DNA from: Micromonospora citrea
GTDB lineage: Bacteria; Actinomycetota; Actinomycetes; Mycobacteriales; Micromonosporaceae
Assembly: GCF_900090315.1 (NCBI RefSeq)
Contig: NZ_FMHZ01000002.1
Coordinates: 4,620,501 to 4,684,500, forward strand
Direction of reading: 5' to 3'
Length of the DNA stretch: 64,000 bases
Numbering within the stretch: position 1 is the stretch's first letter; the number at the start of each line of letters is the position of its first letter. The translations under genes were made by a program, and so were the position numbers. Below the pieces are notes generated by a model, which was given only the letters and a program-made list of their open reading frames with translations, was not told where the DNA came from and did no database searches. Of the stretch, positions 1 through 41,702 are shown piece after piece.

Positions 1-2610
1 CTGACCGTCGGCCGGGCCGCCGGCACCCCGCTGCTGGCCGGTGCGCCCCTGCTGCTGGTGGCGCTGACGCTGCTCGGCGCGGCGCTGCTCACCGGCGGGC
101 GGGTGTTCCGCGCCGTCGCCGCCGGGGCGCTGGTGCCGGTGCTGGCCGGCGTGGTCGTCCGCCCGATCGCGGAGCTGTGGCCCTCGCCGGCGCCGCTGCT
201 CGCGGCGCTCGTCGTGGTGGCGCTCGCCGGCGCGGTGCGGCTGCTGCCCGCCGGGTGGCGGACCGGTCCCCGGTTCGGCGCGCTGCTGGTGGCCGGCGGG
301 ACGGCCCAGCTCACCGTGCTGGTGGTCGTCCTGCTCGCCGGCGCCACGGCGGTCCGGTCGCTGCCCCCGTGGCAGGACGCCGCCGCCGGCCCGGACCTCG
401 CGCGGGGATGGCAGTTGCCGCTGACTGTCGCGTTGGCGCTCGCGGCCCTGGGACTGCTGCTGCCCCGCGCCGCCCGGTCGCCGCTCGCCGCGTTCGGCGT
501 GGCGGCAGTCGTGCTCGCGGCGCCCGCGGCCTGGCCGTCGCCGTGGCCGGCGGTGGTGGCCCTGGACCTGGCGGCGGGGGCGGGCCTGCTGGCCGTCGCG
601 GTGGGTCGGGCGGGCGTCCGGTCCTGGACGGTGGCGACCGCGGCGACGTCCGGGGTCGTCCTGCTCGGGCACGGGCTGCTGGTGGGGCTCGCGGCCCCCG
701 TCGGCGCGGGGGCGGCGCTCGCGGTGCTCCTCGCCGTCGGGCTCGCCGCGGCCGCCGCCGGACGGCGGGGCACGGCCGTCCAGCGTGGGGTCGCCGGGGT
801 CTCCCTGGCCGTCGCGCCGCTCGCGGCGCCGGCCGGCGCGGCCGTCGCCCTGATCGCCGCCGGGGCACCGGCCTGGTGGCAGGCGCGGGCGGCGCTCGCC
901 GCCGTCGTGCTGCTGCCGGCCGGGCTGCTCGCGGTCCGTCGGCACTGGCCCGACCTGCGGGCGTACGGCGGTGTCGCGCTCGCCGTGGCGGTCACGCTGG
1001 TCGGGTCGGCGCCGCTGGTCGTGCCGGCTGACGAGCCGGTGACCCTCTACGCCGCCGTGGCGGTCCTGCTGGCGGCGCTGGGCGGTGCGGCGTGCCCGGG
1101 CGTCGTCCTGCGGGTGGCCGGCGTCGGACTGCTGGTGATCTCCGTCGTCGCCGCCGCGCCGGTCGCGCTCACGGTGCTCCTCGCCCCGTACGGCGGGGTG
1201 GCGCCCTGGTCCGGTGCGCCGGACGTCGAGCCCGCGCCGGAGGCGTTCCCCGCCGGCGTGGCGCTGGCCGCGCTGGCGGTGGCCGCGATCCTGGCCGCCC
1301 GCCCCGGTGCGGGCGTGCCGGAAGCCGCCGGGCCCGGCGCTGGGGAGCCGGGTGTGACGCGCCCGCACCCGGGTGCGTCGGGGGTCGCCCGCCCCGACGC
1401 GAACGGCCCGCACGCCGCCGGGTCCGCCGCGCCCGCGCGCGCCGGGCGGTGGCGGGCCCCGCTGGCCGCGCTGCCGTTCGCCGCGACCGCGCTGCCGGTG
1501 CTGCTCGTGGCCGCCGGCACGCCGTGGCCGGTGGCGCCGGCCGTCACGCTGGTCGTCGGGGTGGCCGTGGTGCTGGTCGCCGCCCTGGCCGCGCCCCGCC
1601 CGTTGCTCGTCCCGGTCGGGGTGCCGGTGGGGCTGGCGCTGACCGGCTCCGGGCTGCTGGGGCTGCTGGCCACCCGGGCGGGCACCCTCGCCGGCCTGGG
1701 GGTGCTGGTGGTGGCGGCGACCGTGGTCGGTGTGGCCGCGCGCCGGGACGAGGCTCGGCTCGCCGGCTGCCTGGTGGCGGTGACCGCCGCGACGGGTCTG
1801 GCGGTGACCGCCCCGCCGGCCGGCGGGCTGCCGCTGCGGACGGCCGCGTTCAGCGTGCTCGCGGTCGCGGTGCTCACGCTGGGCGCCGCCGCGCTGCTCG
1901 GCGGTCCCCGGGCCGCCGTCGCGGCCGGTCAGGCACGGCGGGGAGCCGCCACGGCGGCGGCGCTGGACGCGGTCGCCCAGGCGGTGGCGCTGGTCGCGCT
2001 GCTGCTCGCGGTCGGCGCGCTCCGGTACGCCGCGGCGGTCTGCGTGCTGTGGGGTGCCGCCGTCGCGCTGCGGGTGCTGCGCCGGGGCGAGTCGACGGGC
2101 CGGCGCTGGGCCTTCGCGGGCGTCGCCGGCGGCAGCGAACTGCTCGGCGGCTGGCTGCTGCTGGCCGCCGGGAAGGTGGCGCTGCTGGAGGCGTACACGG
2201 TGCCGGCGGCGGCGCTGGCCCTCGGGGCGGGCGTGGCGGCGCTGCGCACCCGGCCGGGGCTGAACAGTTGGCTGGCGCTCGGGCCGGGGCTCGCGGCCGC
2301 GCTGCTGCCGAGCCTGGTGTCGGTGCTGGTGGCCCCGGATCCGCAGCCGTGGCGACGGCTGCTGCTGGGCGCGGTCGCGCTCGGCACGGTGCTCGCCGGG
2401 GCGACCCGCCGCTGGCAGGCGCCGGTGCTGCTCGGCGGGGTCACGCTGGCCCTGCTCGCACTGCACGAGCTGGCTCGCGGCTGGGATCTGCTGCCCCGGT
2501 GGATCTTCCTCGCCGTCGGCGGGTTCGCGTTGATCGGCCTCGCCGCCACGTACGAGCGACGACGGCGCGATCTGGCCCGGCTCCGCGCCGCCGTCGGCCG
2601 GATGGGCTGA
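1..2610 (+). CDS. Large polytopic membrane protein, 5'-truncated by the window
   Basis: The frame is open from base 1, so the true start lies before the window; the first in-frame GTG here is at 58. At least 869 residues are visible, almost all Ala/Leu/Val/Gly-rich membrane segments, well over a dozen. A polar, Pro/Gly-rich stretch near residues 420-460 separates two hydrophobic halves. The C-terminus (ATYERRRRDLARLRAAVGRM) ends in a basic cytoplasmic tail and resembles, from memory, the SCO7613 C-terminal family of actinobacterial membrane proteins. No catalytic motif is visible and the function is unknown. The assignment to a protein-coding membrane gene is firm; the family name is tentative. 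Confidence 0.75.
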   Translation: MTVGRAAGTPLLAGAPLLLVALTLLGAALLTGGRVFRAVAAGALVPVLAGVVVRPIAELWPSPAPLLAALVVVALAGAVRLLPAGWRTGPRFGALLVAGGTAQLTVLVVVLLAGATAVRSLPPWQDAAAGPDLARGWQLPLTVALALAALGLLLPRAARSPLAAFGVAAVVLAAPAAWPSPWPAVVALDLAAGAGLLAVAVGRAGVRSWTVATAATSGVVLLGHGLLVGLAAPVGAGAALAVLLAVGLAAAAAGRRGTAVQRGVAGVSLAVAPLAAPAGAAVALIAAGAPAWWQARAALAAVVLLPAGLLAVRRHWPDLRAYGGVALAVAVTLVGSAPLVVPADEPVTLYAAVAVLLAALGGAACPGVVLRVAGVGLLVISVVAAAPVALTVLLAPYGGVAPWSGAPDVEPAPEAFPAGVALAALAVAAILAARPGAGVPEAAGPGAGEPGVTRPHPGASGVARPDANGPHAAGSAAPARAGRWRAPLAALPFAATALPVLLVAAGTPWPVAPAVTLVVGVAVVLVAALAAPRPLLVPVGVPVGLALTGSGLLGLLATRAGTLAGLGVLVVAATVVGVAARRDEARLAGCLVAVTAATGLAVTAPPAGGLPLRTAAFSVLAVAVLTLGAAALLGGPRAAVAAGQARRGAATAAALDAVAQAVALVALLLAVGALRYAAAVCVLWGAAVALRVLRRGESTGRRWAFAGVAGGSELLGGWLLLAAGKVALLEAYTVPAAALALGAGVAALRTRPGLNSWLALGPGLAAALLPSLVSVLVAPDPQPWRRLLLGAVALGTVLAGATRRWQAPVLLGGVTLALLALHELARGWDLLPRWIFLAVGGFALIGLAATYERRRRDLARLRAAVGRMG

Positions 2611-36419: not shown

Positions 36420-37643
36420 ATGCGTGTACTGCTGTCGACCCTCGGGTCGCGCGGCGACGTCCAACCACTGGTGGCGCTGGCGTCGCGGCTGAAGGCCCTC
36501 GGCCTGCAGGTCCGCCTCTGCGCCCCGCCGGACTTCGCCCGCTGGGTGGCCACCTTCAGGATTCCCTTCGTGCCCGTCGGCCCGCCCTGGCGCAGGTCGG
36601 CGGCGCCCACGGCGCGGGCTGCCGCCCTCCGCCCCTCGCCGGCACGGTTACGGCAGCTCGCCGAGTCCTCCGTCGCCGTCCAGTTCGAGGTGCTGTCGGG
36701 GGCGGCAGGGGACTGCGACGTCCTCGTCGCGTCGACGGGCCTCCAGATCGCCGCCCGCACCGTGGCGGAGAGGCGGGGCATACCGTACGTCTACACCGCG
36801 CTCTGCCCGGCGGCCCTTCCCTCGCCGCACCATCCGCCGCCGCCGCTGCCCCTCCTCGGGGAGGCGCCCGCGCCCGCGTCGGCCGACAACGGCGAACTGT
36901 GGGCCGCCAACCTGCGGCACGTCAACGACACCTTCGCCGCGCCGCTCAACGCGCTGCGGACGGCGGTGGGCCTGGTCCCGGTCGACGACGTCAGCGACCA
37001 CATCCACAGCGACCAGCCGTGGCTGGCCGCCGACCCGACGCTGGCGCCCTGGCCGGAGGCCGCCGACCCGACCGTCTACCAACCGGGCGCCTGGCTCCTG
37101 CCGGACGAGCGGGCCCTGCCCGCCGAGCTGACGGCCTTCCTGGAGGCCGGCGGGCCGTGCGTCTACGTCGGATTCGGCAGCGTCGCCGCGCCACCGGGTC
37201 TGCTGGAGACGGCGCTTCGGGCGGTGCGCGCGGTCGGCTGCCGACTGGTCGTCTCCCGGGGGTGGGCACCCCTGGCGCCGGTCGACCGGGCGCCCGACTG
37301 CGTCGTCGTCGGCGAGGTGAACCAGCAGGCGCTGTTCGGAAAGGTGGCCGCGGTGGTCCACCACGGCGGCTCGGGCACCACGACCACGGCCGCGCTGGCC
37401 GGGACTCCACAGGTCGTCATACCGCAGGTCTACGACCAGCACTACTTCGCGCGACGCGTCTGCGCGCTCGGCATCGGGAGCGCGCACCCGGGGTCGGTAC
37501 CCACCGTCGAGTCGCTGACCGCGGTCCTCGGCGCGGTGCTGCGGCCCGAGGTGGCCGCCCGCGCCCGCGCGTTCGCCGCCGTCATCCGCACGGACGGAGC
37601 GCAGGCCGCCGCGCAGCGGTTGACCACCGCTCTCGGGGCCTGA
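36420..37643 (+). CDS. GT1 (UGT/GtfA-like) glycosyltransferase
   Basis: 407 residues, GT-B fold. The start MRVLLSTLGSRGDVQPLVALA and the nucleotide-sugar motif VHHGGSGTTTTAALAGTPQVVIPQVYDQ near 318-345 place it with antibiotic glycosyltransferases (glycopeptide Gtf and macrolide Mgt/Ole types). These either decorate a natural product or glucosylate a macrolide to inactivate it. There is no biosynthetic gene cluster in the window, and an erm gene lies 1.6 kb on, which favours a detoxifying role; acceptor is unproven. GGAAAGG precedes ATG 36420. Confidence 0.88.
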   Translation: MRVLLSTLGSRGDVQPLVALASRLKALGLQVRLCAPPDFARWVATFRIPFVPVGPPWRRSAAPTARAAALRPSPARLRQLAESSVAVQFEVLSGAAGDCDVLVASTGLQIAARTVAERRGIPYVYTALCPAALPSPHHPPPPLPLLGEAPAPASADNGELWAANLRHVNDTFAAPLNALRTAVGLVPVDDVSDHIHSDQPWLAADPTLAPWPEAADPTVYQPGAWLLPDERALPAELTAFLEAGGPCVYVGFGSVAAPPGLLETALRAVRAVGCRLVVSRGWAPLAPVDRAPDCVVVGEVNQQALFGKVAAVVHHGGSGTTTTAALAGTPQVVIPQVYDQHYFARRVCALGIGSAHPGSVPTVESLTAVLGAVLRPEVAARARAFAAVIRTDGAQAAAQRLTTALGA

Positions 37644-37762: not shown

Positions 37763-38665
37763 GTGCGGTTCGGGTTGTTCGGCACCGGGCACTGGGCGGC
37801 GCAGACGCATGGCGCGGCGCTGCACGCGCACCCGGGGGCCGCCCTCGCGGGGGTGTGGGGCCGCGACCCGCGCAAGGCCGCCAGCCTGGCCGACCACTAC
37901 GGAGTGCCCGCGTTCACCGACGTCGACGCGCTGCTCGACGCCTGCGACGCCGTCGCGGTGGCCCTTCCGCCGGACGTCCAGGCCGACATCGCGGTCCGCG
38001 CCGCCACCGCCGGTCGGCACCTGCTGCTGGACAAGCCGCTCGCGTTGAGCGTCGCCGACGCCGACCGGGTGGTCGACGCCGCGCAGGCGACCGGCGTCGC
38101 CTCGGTGGTCTTCTTCACCGGGCGCTACCAGCCGGACATCGCCGGCTTCCTGGCCTCGACCGCCGCCGTCGGCGGGTGGCACACCGCCAAGGCGGTCCGG
38201 TTCGGCTCGATTTTTCAGCCCGGCAGCCCGTACGGCGCCTCGCCGTGGCGGCGCACGCACGGCGCGCTCTGGGACATCGGCCCGCACGCGCTGTCGCTCG
38301 TCCTGCCGGTGCTCGGCCGGGTCACCCGGGTCGCCGCGATGGACGGCCCGCGCGGGCTCGTCCACCTGCTGCTCACCCACGACGGGGGCGCGACGAGCAC
38401 CGTCTCGCTGACCCTGGACGCCCCGCCGGAGGCGGTGAGCCGGGAGTTCGTCTTCTACGGCGACAACGGCGTCGAGACCGTCCCGCCCGGCGAGGGCGAC
38501 TCGGTCACCGCGCTGGGGGTGGCGATCGACCAGTTGCTGGAGGAGATCGCGTCGGGCACCCGGGACCACCGCTGCGACGTGCGCTTCGGCCGCGAGGTCG
38601 TCGCGGTGCTCGCCGCCGCCGAGACCGCCCGCGCCGAGGGCCGTACCGTCGACGTGGCGGCCTGA
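37763..38665 (+). CDS. Gfo/Idh/MocA-family oxidoreductase
   Basis: 300 residues from GTG 37763; the adjacent GTG at 37760 is equally reachable from GGAGG at 37750. The NAD(P)-binding fold begins RFGLFGTGHWAAQTHGAAL, with VWGRDP at the second strand. LLLDKPLAL is the family's E/DKP motif, and DIGPHALSLVLPVLG contains the conserved catalytic-region His. The C-terminal half is the alpha/beta substrate domain. Such enzymes oxidise sugars or sugar nucleotides, which fits the two glycosyltransferases upstream, though the link is positional only. Confidence 0.88.
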   Translation: MRFGLFGTGHWAAQTHGAALHAHPGAALAGVWGRDPRKAASLADHYGVPAFTDVDALLDACDAVAVALPPDVQADIAVRAATAGRHLLLDKPLALSVADADRVVDAAQATGVASVVFFTGRYQPDIAGFLASTAAVGGWHTAKAVRFGSIFQPGSPYGASPWRRTHGALWDIGPHALSLVLPVLGRVTRVAAMDGPRGLVHLLLTHDGGATSTVSLTLDAPPEAVSREFVFYGDNGVETVPPGEGDSVTALGVAIDQLLEEIASGTRDHRCDVRFGREVVAVLAAAETARAEGRTVDVAA

Positions 38666-38801
38666 CCGGGACGAGCCGCCGCCGGGCGACGGCAGCGGGC
38701 CGTCCGCGCTCGGCGGCAGGGGCGGGCCGGGCAGCGGCGGAGGGCCGGTCGGCAGGGGCGGGCCGGGCGGAAATCGGTCGCCGGGTGGGTCCCGGCGGGG
38801 C

Positions 38802-38807
38802 TAGGCT
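38802..38807 (+). promoter_or_regulatory. -10 element before the 37-codon leader ORF
   Basis: TAGGCT ends seven bases before ATG 38815, the same box and spacing as at 21799; candidate promoter for the erm transcript. Confidence 0.5.
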
Positions 38808-38814
38808 CGCCGGC

Positions 38815-38928
38815 ATGTCCGCGCACGCTCTGATCGACGGGGTCGGCACGCCGGCCGCCTTCGGGCCGCTGTTGACGGCCCGCCCGCGAGTCCGGCGTCC
38901 GGCCCTGGCCGGCGCGACCCGCGACTGA
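38815..38928 (+). CDS. 37-residue leader-peptide candidate upstream of erm
   Basis: A short ORF starting MSAHALIDG and ending AGATRD. About 34 of 37 third codon positions are G or C, as in the real genes around it, so it looks translated. It contains RPRVRRPAL; Arg-X-Arg motifs are known sites where macrolide-bound ribosomes stall. It begins 7 bases after a TAGGCT box (probably leaderless) and ends 301 bp before the erm start in a region full of alternative hairpins. No domain is recognisable. It could equally be a conserved short protein; the leader role is inference. Confidence 0.45.
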   Translation: MSAHALIDGVGTPAAFGPLLTARPRVRRPALAGATRD

Positions 38929-39140
38929 CTCCGCACACCGCACGCACGGCACCCCGCCCGGACACCTCCGGGTGCCGGCCGCCGTCCCACCGTCGCCCCG
39001 GGTGACACCCCGGAGGTGAGCGCCGCCGTCGGCGCCGCCCCGGCCACCGGCTCGGCGACGGGTGCCGTCCCGGCCTCCCCGCCGGCGACGGCGTGCCGCC
39101 GTGCGCCGTCGATCCGACGTTCCGCGCCACGCACAGGGCC

Positions 39141-39219
39141 GTCCGAGTCCGCCGTTTCCTCGGACAGGCCCCCGCTCCCGGCTGCCTGTCCGCTCCGTCG
39201 CCGCCCGGCGACAGACAGG
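39141..39219 (+). promoter_or_regulatory. Mutually exclusive hairpins sequestering the erm ribosome binding site
   Basis: Four segments can pair alternatively. Segment 1 GTCCGAG (39141-39147) pairs with CTCGGAC (39159-39165). Segment 2 CGGACAGGC (39161-39169) pairs perfectly with segment 3 GCCTGTCCG (39184-39192). Segment 3 CCTGTC (39185-39190) also pairs with segment 4 GACAGG (39214-39219), reinforced by GTCGCCG (39197-39203) with CGGCGAC (39206-39212). Segment 4 plus A39220 is the AGGA site for GTG 39230. So 1:2 with 3:4 hides the site, while 2:3 frees it, as in classical erm attenuators. Two overlapping ORFs cross the region (GTG 39093 and GTG 39101-39226). Confidence 0.55.
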
Positions 39220-39229
39220 ACGATGACCC

Positions 39230-40027
39230 GTGGCGCCCCGCCGTACCCGTGCGACCGAACGCGACCGCTCCCGGCGCTTGCTCTCCCAGAACTTCCTCGT
39301 CGACCCGGCCGCGATCGCCCGGCTGGTCCACGCCGCCCGCCCCGCACCCGACCGGCTCCTGCTGGAGGTGGGGGCGGGCCGGGGCCAGCTCACCCGGCCG
39401 CTCGCCGACCGCTGCCCACACCTCGTGGCGTACGAGGTGGATCCCGCCGCCGGCGCGGAACTGGCCCGGGTCTGCGCCGCCCGGCCGAACGTGACCCACC
39501 GACAGGCCGACTTCCTGACCGCGACGCCGCCGGCCGAGGCGTTCGACGTGGTCGGCAACATCCCCTGGTCGCTCACCTCGGCGGTGGTGCGGTGGTGCCT
39601 GGCCGCGCCGGGGCTGCGGGCGGCGACCCTGCTCACCCAGTTGGAGTACGCCCGCCGGCGCAGCGGCGACTACGGACGGTGGACCCGGCTCACCGTGCTG
39701 ACCTGGCCGGAGTTCGGCTGGCGGCTCGCCGGCAGGGTGCCCCGCACCGCGTTCCGCCCGGTGCCGAGGGTGGACGCCGGAATCCTGCGCGTCGAGCGGC
39801 GGCCGGAGCCGCTGCTGCCCGCGTCGGCGCTGCCGGCGTACCGTCGGATGGTGGAGATCGGCTTCGACGGGGTCGGCGGCTCGCTCGCGGCCTCGCTGGG
39901 TCGGCGCCATCCCCGGGCGCGGCTGTCGGCGGCGCTGCGGGCGACGCGGCTCGACCCGGCCACGCCGGTCGGGCACGTCTGGCCGGAGCAGTGGCTGGTG
40001 CTGTTCCGGCTGCTGCACGCCCGCTAG
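39230..40027 (+). CDS. erm: Erm-type 23S rRNA adenine N6-methyltransferase
   Basis: 265 residues from GTG. RRLLSQNFLVDPAAIARLV near residue 16, AdoMet motif I LEVGAGRGQLTRPL near 44, acidic YEVDP near 69, and catalytic motif IV VVGNIPWSLTSAVV near 107-120 identify an rRNA adenine dimethylase. NIPW rather than NLPY, the basic N-terminus and the length fit Erm rather than KsgA/RsmA. Erm enzymes methylate A2058 of 23S rRNA (E. coli numbering), conferring macrolide-lincosamide-streptogramin B resistance. Mono- or dimethylation cannot be told. Expression is probably controlled by the hairpins covering its AGGA site. Confidence 0.9.
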   Translation: MAPRRTRATERDRSRRLLSQNFLVDPAAIARLVHAARPAPDRLLLEVGAGRGQLTRPLADRCPHLVAYEVDPAAGAELARVCAARPNVTHRQADFLTATPPAEAFDVVGNIPWSLTSAVVRWCLAAPGLRAATLLTQLEYARRRSGDYGRWTRLTVLTWPEFGWRLAGRVPRTAFRPVPRVDAGILRVERRPEPLLPASALPAYRRMVEIGFDGVGGSLAASLGRRHPRARLSAALRATRLDPATPVGHVWPEQWLVLFRLLHAR

Positions 40028-40056
40028 GGTGCCGCCGACCGGGCGGGCCCGCCCCG

Positions 40057-40248
40057 TCAGGCCAGCGTGTTCAGGGCGTCGCCGAGCTCGGCGGGGGATT
40101 CGAACTCCTCCGCCGGCAGCGACCGGAGCGTCTGGAGCGTCTCCGTGCTGACGCCGTTCTCCTGGCCCCAGCGGATCAGGTCCTCCCGGGAGACCGGGTA
40201 GTCGAGCCCGGCCAGGTACTCCTGCAACTGCGCGCCGGTGACGGTCAT
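40057..40248 (-). CDS. DUF2795 protein
   Basis: 63 residues. The sequence follows the DUF2795 pattern throughout: QLQEYLAGLDYPVSREDLI, AxxNG-like QENGVSTETLQTLRSLP, and EEFESPAELGDAL. These small helical proteins are frequent in actinobacteria and have no established biochemical role. It is convergent with erm (29 bp between stops) and divergent from the esterase gene. Confidence 0.92.
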   Translation of the reverse strand: MTVTGAQLQEYLAGLDYPVSREDLIRWGQENGVSTETLQTLRSLPAEEFESPAELGDALNTLA

Positions 40249-40445
40249 GCCGTCGGGCTACCCGCTCAGCCCGCCGGCACACCGCCCGGCCCCGCCCCCG
40301 GTTCGGCCCCCGCGCGGTGTCCGTCCGGCGGCCGGCACCCGCACCGACACCCTGCGGCGTCCCCCGCCTGGTGTCCCGCCTTCCCGCGCGGCCGTCCCGT
40401 GCCCGGCGGCGGTTTGCCCGGCGACCCGCCGGGTAGCCGCCCGGC

Positions 40446-41702
40446 ATGCTGGTTCAGCGGCTCGGCGCGCCGAGCGACTTCGACCCGTTGCTGGAGCGCG
40501 TCCGGGACGCCCGGATCGTCATGATCGGCGAGGCCACGCACGGCAGCTACGACTACTACCGGCTGCGCGAGCAGCTCACCCGCCGGCTGATCGCCGAGTG
40601 CGGCTTCTCCTTCGTCGCCGTGGAGGGTGACTGGCCGGACTGCGACCGGGTGCACCGGTCGGTGACCGGGGCCCCGGGCGGGGCGGTCGAGCCGCGCGCC
40701 GCACTGGAGCGCTTCGAGCGCTGGCCGACGTGGATGTGGGCCAACGCCGAGGTGGCCCGGTTCTGCAGTTGGCTGCGGGCGTGGAACGTCGAGCGACCGG
40801 CGGGGGCCCGGGCGGGCTTCCACGGCCTGGACGTCTACAGCCTGTGGGAGTCCATGCAGGCGATCTTCGACTACCTCGGCGAGGAGGACCCGGCGTCGCT
40901 GGAGGCGGCGCAGGACGCGTACCGCTGTTTCGAGCCGTACGGCAAGCGCGTCGAGGAGTACGGCACGGCCAGCCGGTTCGTCTCCGCGCGGTGCGAGGAG
41001 GAGGTCGTGCGGCTGCTGGCGCGTACCCGCGAACAGGCCGCCGCGGACGGCCCGGACAGCTTCTCGGCCTGGCAGAACGCGGAGGTGGTGGCCGGCGCGG
41101 AGCGCTACTACCGGGCCATGGTGCGCGGCGGTCCGGAGTCGTGGAACGTCCGGGACACCCACATGGCGGACACGCTGGACCGGCTCCTCGAACGGTACGG
41201 GCCCGACTCGCGCGGGATCGTCTGGGCGCACAACACGCACGTCGGGGACGCCCGGGCCACCGACATGGCCGCCGACGGGATGGTCAACATCGGTCAGCTC
41301 GCCCGCGAGCGGCACGGGGCCGACGAGGTGGTCCTGGTCGGCTTCGGCAGCTACCGGGGCACGGTGATCGCCGCCCCTCGCTGGGGCTCGCCGGCCGAGG
41401 CGATGGTGGTGCCGCCGGCCCGGCCCGGCTCGGTGGAGCACCGGTTGCACGAGCTGATGCCGGAACGGGCGGTGCTCGTCTTCGGCGGCGCCGACCAGCC
41501 CGGCTGGGTCACCGGCACCGCCGACCACCGGGCCATCGGGGTGGTCTACGACCCGTCCTTCGAGTCGTGGGGCAACTACGTGCCGACCCGGCTGGGGGAG
41601 CGCTACGACGCCTTCGTCTGGTGCGACGAGACCACCGCCCTGCACCCGCTGCCCGCCCTGACCAGCCCGGGCGAGATGGAGACCTACCCGGCGGGCGTCT
41701 GA
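40446..41702 (+). CDS. Erythromycin esterase family protein
   Basis: 418 residues. The family's motifs are present: VMIGEATHGSYDYYRLRE near residue 28 with the catalytic His, VAVEGDWPDC near 60, FHGLDVYSLWESM near 126 and WAHNTHVGDAR near 262. EreA/EreB hydrolyse the macrolactone ring of 14-membered macrolides; many chromosomal homologues have untested substrates. Proximity to erm makes macrolide hydrolysis a reasonable hypothesis. No ribosome binding site precedes ATG 40446 (TAGCCG ends 6 bases before it, possibly leaderless). The 40249-40445 gap shows no gene. Its 3' end overlaps the convergent tetR gene by 19 bases. Confidence 0.88.
   Translation: MLVQRLGAPSDFDPLLERVRDARIVMIGEATHGSYDYYRLREQLTRRLIAECGFSFVAVEGDWPDCDRVHRSVTGAPGGAVEPRAALERFERWPTWMWANAEVARFCSWLRAWNVERPAGARAGFHGLDVYSLWESMQAIFDYLGEEDPASLEAAQDAYRCFEPYGKRVEEYGTASRFVSARCEEEVVRLLARTREQAAADGPDSFSAWQNAEVVAGAERYYRAMVRGGPESWNVRDTHMADTLDRLLERYGPDSRGIVWAHNTHVGDARATDMAADGMVNIGQLARERHGADEVVLVGFGSYRGTVIAAPRWGSPAEAMVVPPARPGSVEHRLHELMPERAVLVFGGADQPGWVTGTADHRAIGVVYDPSFESWGNYVPTRLGERYDAFVWCDETTALHPLPALTSPGEMETYPAGV

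Follow-up and report, generated by a model that had tools for sequence, protein, structure and literature searches.

In the environment, actinomycetes form a reservoir of erm genes, and the erm gene in the 64,000-nucleotide stretch of Micromonospora citrea DNA analysed here (the window) raises the question of what the long region in front of it senses and how such a signal could reach the Shine-Dalgarno (SD) sequence of the gene. Sequence comparison and RNA folding together lead us to regard it as reasonably probable that this region is a macrolide-sensing erm attenuator with five RNA segments.

The erm gene and the loci used for comparison

39230..40027, + strand: erm, 23S rRNA (adenine-2058-N6)-methyltransferase, GTG start, 265 amino acids, NCBIfam NF000337

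The erm ORF scores 344.4 bits against NCBIfam NF000337 (ErmE/H/O/R family), for which the cut-off is 320. A glycosyltransferase related to the rifamycin-inactivating Rgt is encoded upstream of it at 36420-37643 (379.5 bits, cut-off 800) and an erythromycin-esterase-like protein downstream at 40446-41702 (33.9 bits to EreB, far under the curated cut-off of 750); the three genes possibly form a resistance neighbourhood. When the whole window was searched with Rfam at gathering thresholds, tRNA was the sole match.

Homologues of erm were collected in a search of 101 genomes and in a second search of 300 same-family genomes, 154 of which matched at E <= 1e-40; in a third genome collection, Micromonospora and Salinispora were among the closest erm homologues. 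Segment 1 of the switch described below lies at most 300 nt from erm in 34 of the 40 first-panel loci, and in the remaining six (L034-L036, L038-L040), of which some belong to the same genus, the erm homologue is more distant. The genus set of 89 loci excludes L034, L035, L039, L040 and L191, divergent homologues of 37-60% identity that occur without the switch also in same-genus genomes; G309 is absent from it as well. Removal of L032 (contig end), L047 (failed segment 2 pattern) and 12 exact duplicates gave 75 distinct genus loci, selected via the pattern R[PL][RW].RRPA[LPS], and omission of L055 gave 74 for the SD calculations. The divergent erm of L034 (genome G013; 59% identity) is preceded by an unrelated ORF that ends in MVDMITLIRSGQAPVVRLRDRRPALRRIPF and contains an RLR motif. 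The erm matches of L037 (genome G050) and L033 (genome G040) fall into two overlapping pieces, which may reflect a frameshift or a sequencing error.

Mutually exclusive helices in front of erm

39136..39147, + strand: segment 1 (extended), GGGCC followed by GTCCGAG, with the core GTCCGAG at 39141-39147
39159..39171, + strand: segment 2, CTCGGAC-A-GGCCC; 39159-39169 is CTCGGACAGGC, and 39161-39169 alternatively pairs with segment 3
39184..39192, + strand: segment 3, GCCTGTCCG, covarying partner in helix 2:3
39197..39212, + strand: hairpin h, GTCGCC/GGCGAC, 6 bp, between segments 3 and 4, covarying
39214..39221, + strand: segment 4 and Shine-Dalgarno region, GACAGGAC; GACAGG is 39214-39219

The initial annotation of the window had proposed an erm attenuator with mutually exclusive helices and had named covariation across homologous loci among the ways to check it. 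The four segments that it placed at 39141-39147, 39159-39169, 39184-39192 and 39214-39219 are exact in the sequence, and its alternative stems were confirmed mechanically, all of them perfect (7 bp for 1:2, 9 bp for 2:3 and 6 bp for 3:4). This linked 7/9/6-bp arrangement was found in none of 3000 dinucleotide shuffles of 39120-39229, and a lone perfect stem of at least 9 bp (loop of at most 40) in 77 of 3000. Stem 1:2 exceeds its first description, with GGGCC-GTCCGAG (39136-39147) facing CTCGGAC-A-GGCCC (39159-39171) around one bulged A. The four segments are kept upstream of orthologous erm genes in Micromonospora and Salinispora, and the switch is strongly kept in the 34 first-panel loci, with loops and spacers that vary.

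Covariation was analysed in an alignment of 93 loci, 75 from the genus and 18 from the family (19 had been chosen, and L168, its piece cut, was omitted). In these counts, which take no account of kinship among the loci, helix 2:3 is paired in 804 of 837 cells with 21 double-change cells and hairpin h in 537 of 546 with 22, values reached by 0 of 500 shuffles in both cases. Covariation is thus present in 2:3 and in the SD-proximal hairpin, and the proposal of an attenuator with exclusive helices is supported. Helix 1:2 (1028 of 1112 cells paired, three double-change cells) was likewise matched by 0 of 500 shuffles, with a small margin. The stem 3:4, which had been proposed to hide the SD, is conserved but does not covary: 531 of 554 cells are paired, one cell shows a double change, and the observed value is attained in 97 of 500 shuffles and, for the other 3:4 register (GTCC:GGAC), in all 500.

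Insertions were seen between segments 2 and 3 in some loci. L002, which looks identical to L066 (Micromonospora endolithica), has about 100 nt inserted there with both arms intact, and L029, L030 and L032 combine insertions with an altered yet complementary 2:3 pair, CGGACCGC:GCGGTCCG.

As the sensor, the initial annotation had put forward two overlapping GTG ORFs that cross segment 1, on which an arrested ribosome (at VRVRRF or RSR) would block segment 1 directly. Both ORFs exist in the window (GTG at 39093 and 39101), and blocking segment 1 does raise the number of folded leaders with P(2:3) of at least 0.9 from 7 to 29 of 33. However, the ORFs are not shared across loci: in 8 of 34 (L004, L005, L009, L011, L013, L017, L021 and L037), none of the frames offers a start codon between the conserved upstream ORF (uORF) described below and segment 1, a count that omits L035, whose erm is distant and whose GTCCGAG lies inside the gene. 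We rejected the ORFs as sensors because of these eight loci. Loop lengths between segments 1 and 2 moreover vary out of frame among loci, no conserved start or peptide was seen between the uORF and segment 1, and arrest across segment 1 appears extremely unlikely as the trigger. What stood of the first reading is the attenuator with exclusive helices; its sensor gave way to a different, conserved uORF, tied to segment 1 by a long-range helix that the first reading did not contain.

A predicted leaderless uORF with a macrolide-arrest motif

38770..38807, + strand: WhiB7/WblC-like promoter, GAAATC 38770-38775, -35-like TCGCCG 38778-38783, 18-bp spacer, -10 TAGGCT 38802-38807
38815..38928, + strand: leaderless leader-peptide uORF, 37 codons plus stop, MSAHALIDGVGTPAAFGPLLTARPRVRRPALAGATRD followed by the stop; 33 of 34 first-panel loci
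38881..38889, + strand: macrolide-arrest motif Arg-Pro-Arg (R1-X2-R3), pattern match, of the known arrest classes

In the window, this uORF starts 415 bp upstream of erm and ends about 212 nt upstream of segment 1; across the 75 genus loci, 26 to 300 nt separate its stop codon from segment 1. It is present in 33 of the 34 first-panel loci, and its pattern matched in 88 of the 89 genus loci, the exception in both sets being L032, a contig end with 341 nt upstream. Among the 75 loci, which were themselves picked by pattern, the arrest motif reads RPR in 71, RPW in three and RLR in one. Erythromycin arrest motifs are +X+ and XPX, including +XW and XPW, according to passages of PMC13410324, which would place both RPW and RPR within the erythromycin arrest classes +X+, +XW and XPX. 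The leaderless 37-codon uORF is likely the sensor of the attenuator.

A TAnnnT element ends 6 or 7 nt before the ATG of the uORF in 72 of the 75 distinct genus loci, and a leaderless transcript is therefore expected. L010, L033 and L056 start too near the uORF for the promoter rule, with the -10 still visible before the ATG. Of the 72 loci for which a promoter was called, 65 have, by a broad pattern, an AT-rich element at most 45 nt upstream of the -10. The WblC consensus given in an excerpt of PMC7157823 is GAAAWY, 3 bp, TKGMNN, 16-19 bp, TANNNT, with transcription starting 7-8 bp past the -10; the window has GAAATC, 2 bp, TCGCCG (one mismatch), 18 bp and TAGGCT. The same excerpt describes WblC as raising Erm(O)-type mRNA in S. 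coelicolor, and WhiB7 may control the promoter of the erm leader. A local hairpin within the uORF (CCGGCCC...GGGCCGG), by eye missing in L167 and L187, was left out.

A proposed long-range helix between the uORF and segment 1

38900..38908, + strand: segment 0, CGGCCCTGG, codons Pro-Ala-Leu-(Ala); from RNAalifold, tabulated in 75 loci, cross-genus
39134..39141, + strand: segment 1a, CAGGGCCG, pairs with 38900-38907 and overlaps the 5' half of segment 1

RNAalifold, applied to whole leaders, returned a helix of CGGCCCTGG in the uORF with CCAGGGYCG at segment 1. In the window, segment 0 starts 19 nt past the first base of R1 and pairs with the 5' half of segment 1 over about 225 nt. Among the 75 genus loci, 62 of 64 Pro-Ala-Leu leaders face CCAGGGYCG, the exceptions being L001 (the window), which faces ACAGGGCCG, leaving 8 bp, and L046, which faces CCGAGGGCTG. 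All ten Pro-Ala-Pro leaders (CGGCCCCGG) face CCG[A/T]GGGCCG, and the single PAS leader, L061, faces CCGAGGGCCG; in L056 and L147 the best-ranked helix is other than 0:1. In the 93-locus alignment, again without account of kinship, helix 0:1a is paired in 770 of 837 cells with six double-change cells, reached by 0 of 500 shuffles with a small margin (0.920 versus a shuffle maximum of 0.916).

Helices like 0:1, with compensatory changes among them, are present also in other members of the Micromonosporaceae, in Streptomyces milbemycinicus and among genomes with ermSV-like leaders. Their forms include GACCTTGG:CCAAGGTC (L168), GGCCCCGGCGA:TCGCCGGGGCC (L172), CCTGGACCGG:CCGGTCCAGG (L219), GCCCTGACCGG:CCGGTCAGGGC (L200, an ermSV-like leader) and GCCTAGGCCC:GGGCCTAGGC (L195), the last with a pairing segment that spans the stop codon. 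Related leaders with 0:1 are L158, L159, L161, L162, L166-L168, L172-L174, L176, L179, L181, L184 and L187, joined by the named Streptomyces L077-L079 and by leaders from other families of the class; 0:1 is not the top-ranked helix in every non-genus leader listed with it. The leaders of L194 and L195 are very short, end in IRMRAAA or IRLRAAA, and have the pairing segment across the stop codon. The mutually exclusive helices are thus clearly supported for 2:3, and for 0:1a weakly within the family together with differing compensated pairs across families.

Despite very different leader peptides, the called segment 0 mostly begins 15-21 nt downstream of the first R1 base, with outliers at R1+12 (L207, L211) and R1+23 (L206); L213 has no helix at the expected place. 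Per-locus tests of 0:1 were weak (shuffle p<=0.05 in 19 of 51 loci, 7 of 51 in a cross-locus swap control; the named loci L076 and L080-L086 stood outside the 0:1 tests), and a positional test was devised after them. Its 47 non-genus loci comprise 20 of 38 from the family, 23 of 30 from the class, L074 and L077-L079, with R1 chosen among overlapping motifs in some loci. The best helix in the 84-nt leader window covers R1+22..24 in 23 of the 47, where 4.6 were expected and 14 was the maximum in 20000 simulations, a comparison that overstates independence because the loci are akin, several hits being close relatives, and because L160 scored as a hit yet has its partner at erm-42 and not at segment 1. 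The class loci left out are L202, L214, L215 and L225 (no leader called), L222 (leader equal to that of L217), and L204 and L205 (genus). As for the 18 family loci outside the test, L163, L171, L193, L194 and L195 have a helix at R1+15 to +19, L183 has one only if counted from its second motif (RTR, +15), L164, L169, L170, L175, L185, L190 and L192 have another or an unclear best helix, and no leaderless R-X-R ORF was found in L165, L182, L188, L189 and L191.

Going by the toeprint 16 nt from the P-site codon reported in passages of PMC13410324, a ribosome with X2 in its P site should end about 18-19 nt past the first base of R1. Sequence comparison shows conservation of the uORF and its -10, of helices 0:1, 2:3 and h, and of the spacing from the arrest motif. 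Conserved structure by itself is no proof of a drug response, and such structures might serve mRNA stability or Erm autoregulation, unresponsive to ribosome arrest; the title of PMC5118997 links erm expression to mRNA stability independent of stalling. A segment 0 placed 15-21 nt after R1 would, however, be inexplicable without a ribosome at the motif, and we consider this explanation very unlikely.

If the five-segment attenuator is real, a testable rule would follow in which the distance from arrest codon to pairing segment equals one ribosome footprint. Such a rule would serve to find leaders that sense drugs in GC-rich genomes, whose terminators and promoters are difficult to recognise.

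Proposed direction of the switch

Folding of whole leaders with a masked ribosome gave no consistent direction, and nascent RNA ending just past segment 1 was therefore folded instead for the 75 loci. The mean P(0:1a), 0.42 in free RNA, becomes 0.64 when a ribosome stands at X2 and 0.14 when it stands at the stop codon; it is higher by more than 0.1 at X2 than at the stop in 52 of 75 loci and lower in four, and higher by more than 0.1 at X2 than in free RNA in 35 and lower in 15. Placing the ribosome on segment 0, or with Val in its P site, sets this probability to 0 by construction. Segment 0 lies 17-29 bases from the stop codon in the genus, mostly 17 or 23, so that a terminating ribosome would hardly cover it, and the low P(0:1a) at the stop codon is then not direct masking. 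The 8-bp 0:1a of the window itself is weak in folding (P of 0.08 free and 0 under stall).

Once 1a is taken, the loci with P(2:3) > 0.5 rise from 34 to 55 of 74. Equilibrium accessibility of the SD is unchanged between the states (means of 0.25 and 0.26, 74 loci). The cost of opening the six SD bases, computed after this static accessibility had gone against the model, is higher in the default state, at 6.2 kcal/mol with 1:2 unavailable, than with 1a, 2 and 3 unavailable, at 3.5 kcal/mol; opening is cheaper by more than 0.5 kcal/mol in 68 of 74 loci and dearer in two, with a mean drop of 2.7 kcal/mol. That 0:1 represents the ON state is suggested also because macrolides are expected to induce erm, and by the other output types.

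In the attenuator that we propose, a WhiB7-type promoter would yield a leaderless mRNA that opens directly with the codons of the leader peptide. A macrolide-bound ribosome would arrest at Arg-X-Arg, with X in its P site and its front edge at about the start of segment 0, and would hold back the ribosomes behind it, so that segment 0 is free as segment 1 emerges from RNA polymerase. With the 5' half of segment 1 tied up in helix 0:1a, segment 2 would pair with segment 3 and not with segment 1, segment 3 would stop masking the SD region, and erm would be translated. Without drug, ribosomes would presumably cross segment 0, or competing pairs would hold it; 1:2 would form first, segment 3 would cover the SD, and erm would be off. 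Arrest, the direction of the switch, unmasking of the SD and, in the genus, a translational rather than transcriptional output are all steps that we infer.

Transcriptional attenuation of the trp kind would switch in the identical direction, with 0:1 as antiterminator, 1:2 as a GC-rich terminator and read-through into erm upon stalling. The ermSV-like loci L196, L198, L200 and L201 have an AGGGC/GCCCT hairpin and a short U-run (UUCCC, UCUCC or UUUCCC follows the hairpin), and for tlrA of S. fradiae the title of a publication cited in PMC8546547 speaks of transcriptional attenuation. Yet these U-runs are merely 1 to 3 bases long, and in the window no U-tract follows 1:2 or 2:3 and no site resembling an intrinsic terminator was found in 38500-40500 by a search that U-tract-less terminators could escape. 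Termination at 1:2 would also leave the conserved 2:3 and h downstream of it without a role, and we think a transcriptional output unlikely for this leader.

The relay could also run in reverse, with an Arg-Val-Arg arrest masking segment 0, the drug promoting 1:2, and 2:3 acting as the repressive helix, for example as a U-tract-less terminator. A ribosome with Val in its P site would indeed cover most of segment 0, and 2:3 is among the best covarying helices. R3-V4-R5 is present in L159 and L173 but absent in L181 (IRLRTGRPAL) and L184 (IRLRAGRPAL), which keep R1-X2-R3, and the SD is harder to open with 1:2 locked, which makes this direction decidedly improbable.

The five-segment attenuator may share its front end with other leaders. 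In L203, L210 and L224, segment 1a is predicted to pair with the SD region. One ancestral sensor, Arg-X-Arg with segment 0 about 15-21 nt on, might have persisted in a large part of the actinobacterial erm family with its output modules exchanged (the ermSV-like hairpin with its brief U-run, the 1a:SD pairing of these three loci, the Micromonosporaceae five-segment relay), a view to which we give an even chance. On this view, the Pro-Ala-Leu after the arrest site would be conserved for RNA pairing and not for the peptide.

Relation to known attenuators

The translational attenuator of ermC consists of a leader peptide and mutually exclusive hairpins that mask the SD without drug, and leader peptide, exclusive hairpins and SD masking recur in the model proposed for the window. 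In ermC, however, segment 1 is occupied and thereby masked by the stalled ribosome, whereas in the window the ribosome would halt before segment 0, which would stay exposed, and the signal would have to span about 225 nt. In the E. coli trp attenuator, a ribosome stalled upstream exposes a segment that then pairs with the 5' arm of the default hairpin. The same logic of exposure and capture is proposed for the window, where the signal would be a drug and not charged tRNA and the output would probably be access to the SD. We propose that the window leader works like an erm leader-peptide attenuator with trp-like logic.

The genes ermSV of Streptomyces viridochromogenes and tlrA/ermSF of S. fradiae are erm of the same broad kind. 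The leader of L200, VAANNAIINTGLGRGYAHSVRMRRGPGALTGPGSHAR, which we take to be close to the ermSV leader, contains R-M-R and then a segment 0 that pairs with 1a, 21 nt from the first base of R-M-R. In the ermSV-like form, a short 1:2 hairpin lies near the SD, whereas the window has a spacer of 211 nt and a relay that ends at the SD; in an informal look, no 2:3/h relay was noticed in the ermSV-like form. A helix of the 0:1 type may already have been published for ermSV or tlrA.

The lmrC leader of S. lincolnensis, likened here by its description alone in passages of PMC8546547, likewise shows actinobacterial, antibiotic-responsive and uORF-dependent attenuation, but it precedes an ABC-F gene and has a mapped premature terminator. 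In the portions of the CC-licensed PMC literature consulted, no description of the present leader was found. According to passages of a 2024 survey of about 250 bp upstream of erm genes (PMC11264731), uORFs and palindromes lack universal conservation and may have arisen independently of one another; in the loci analysed here, the uORF, the long-range helix and the relay are conserved together within one family.
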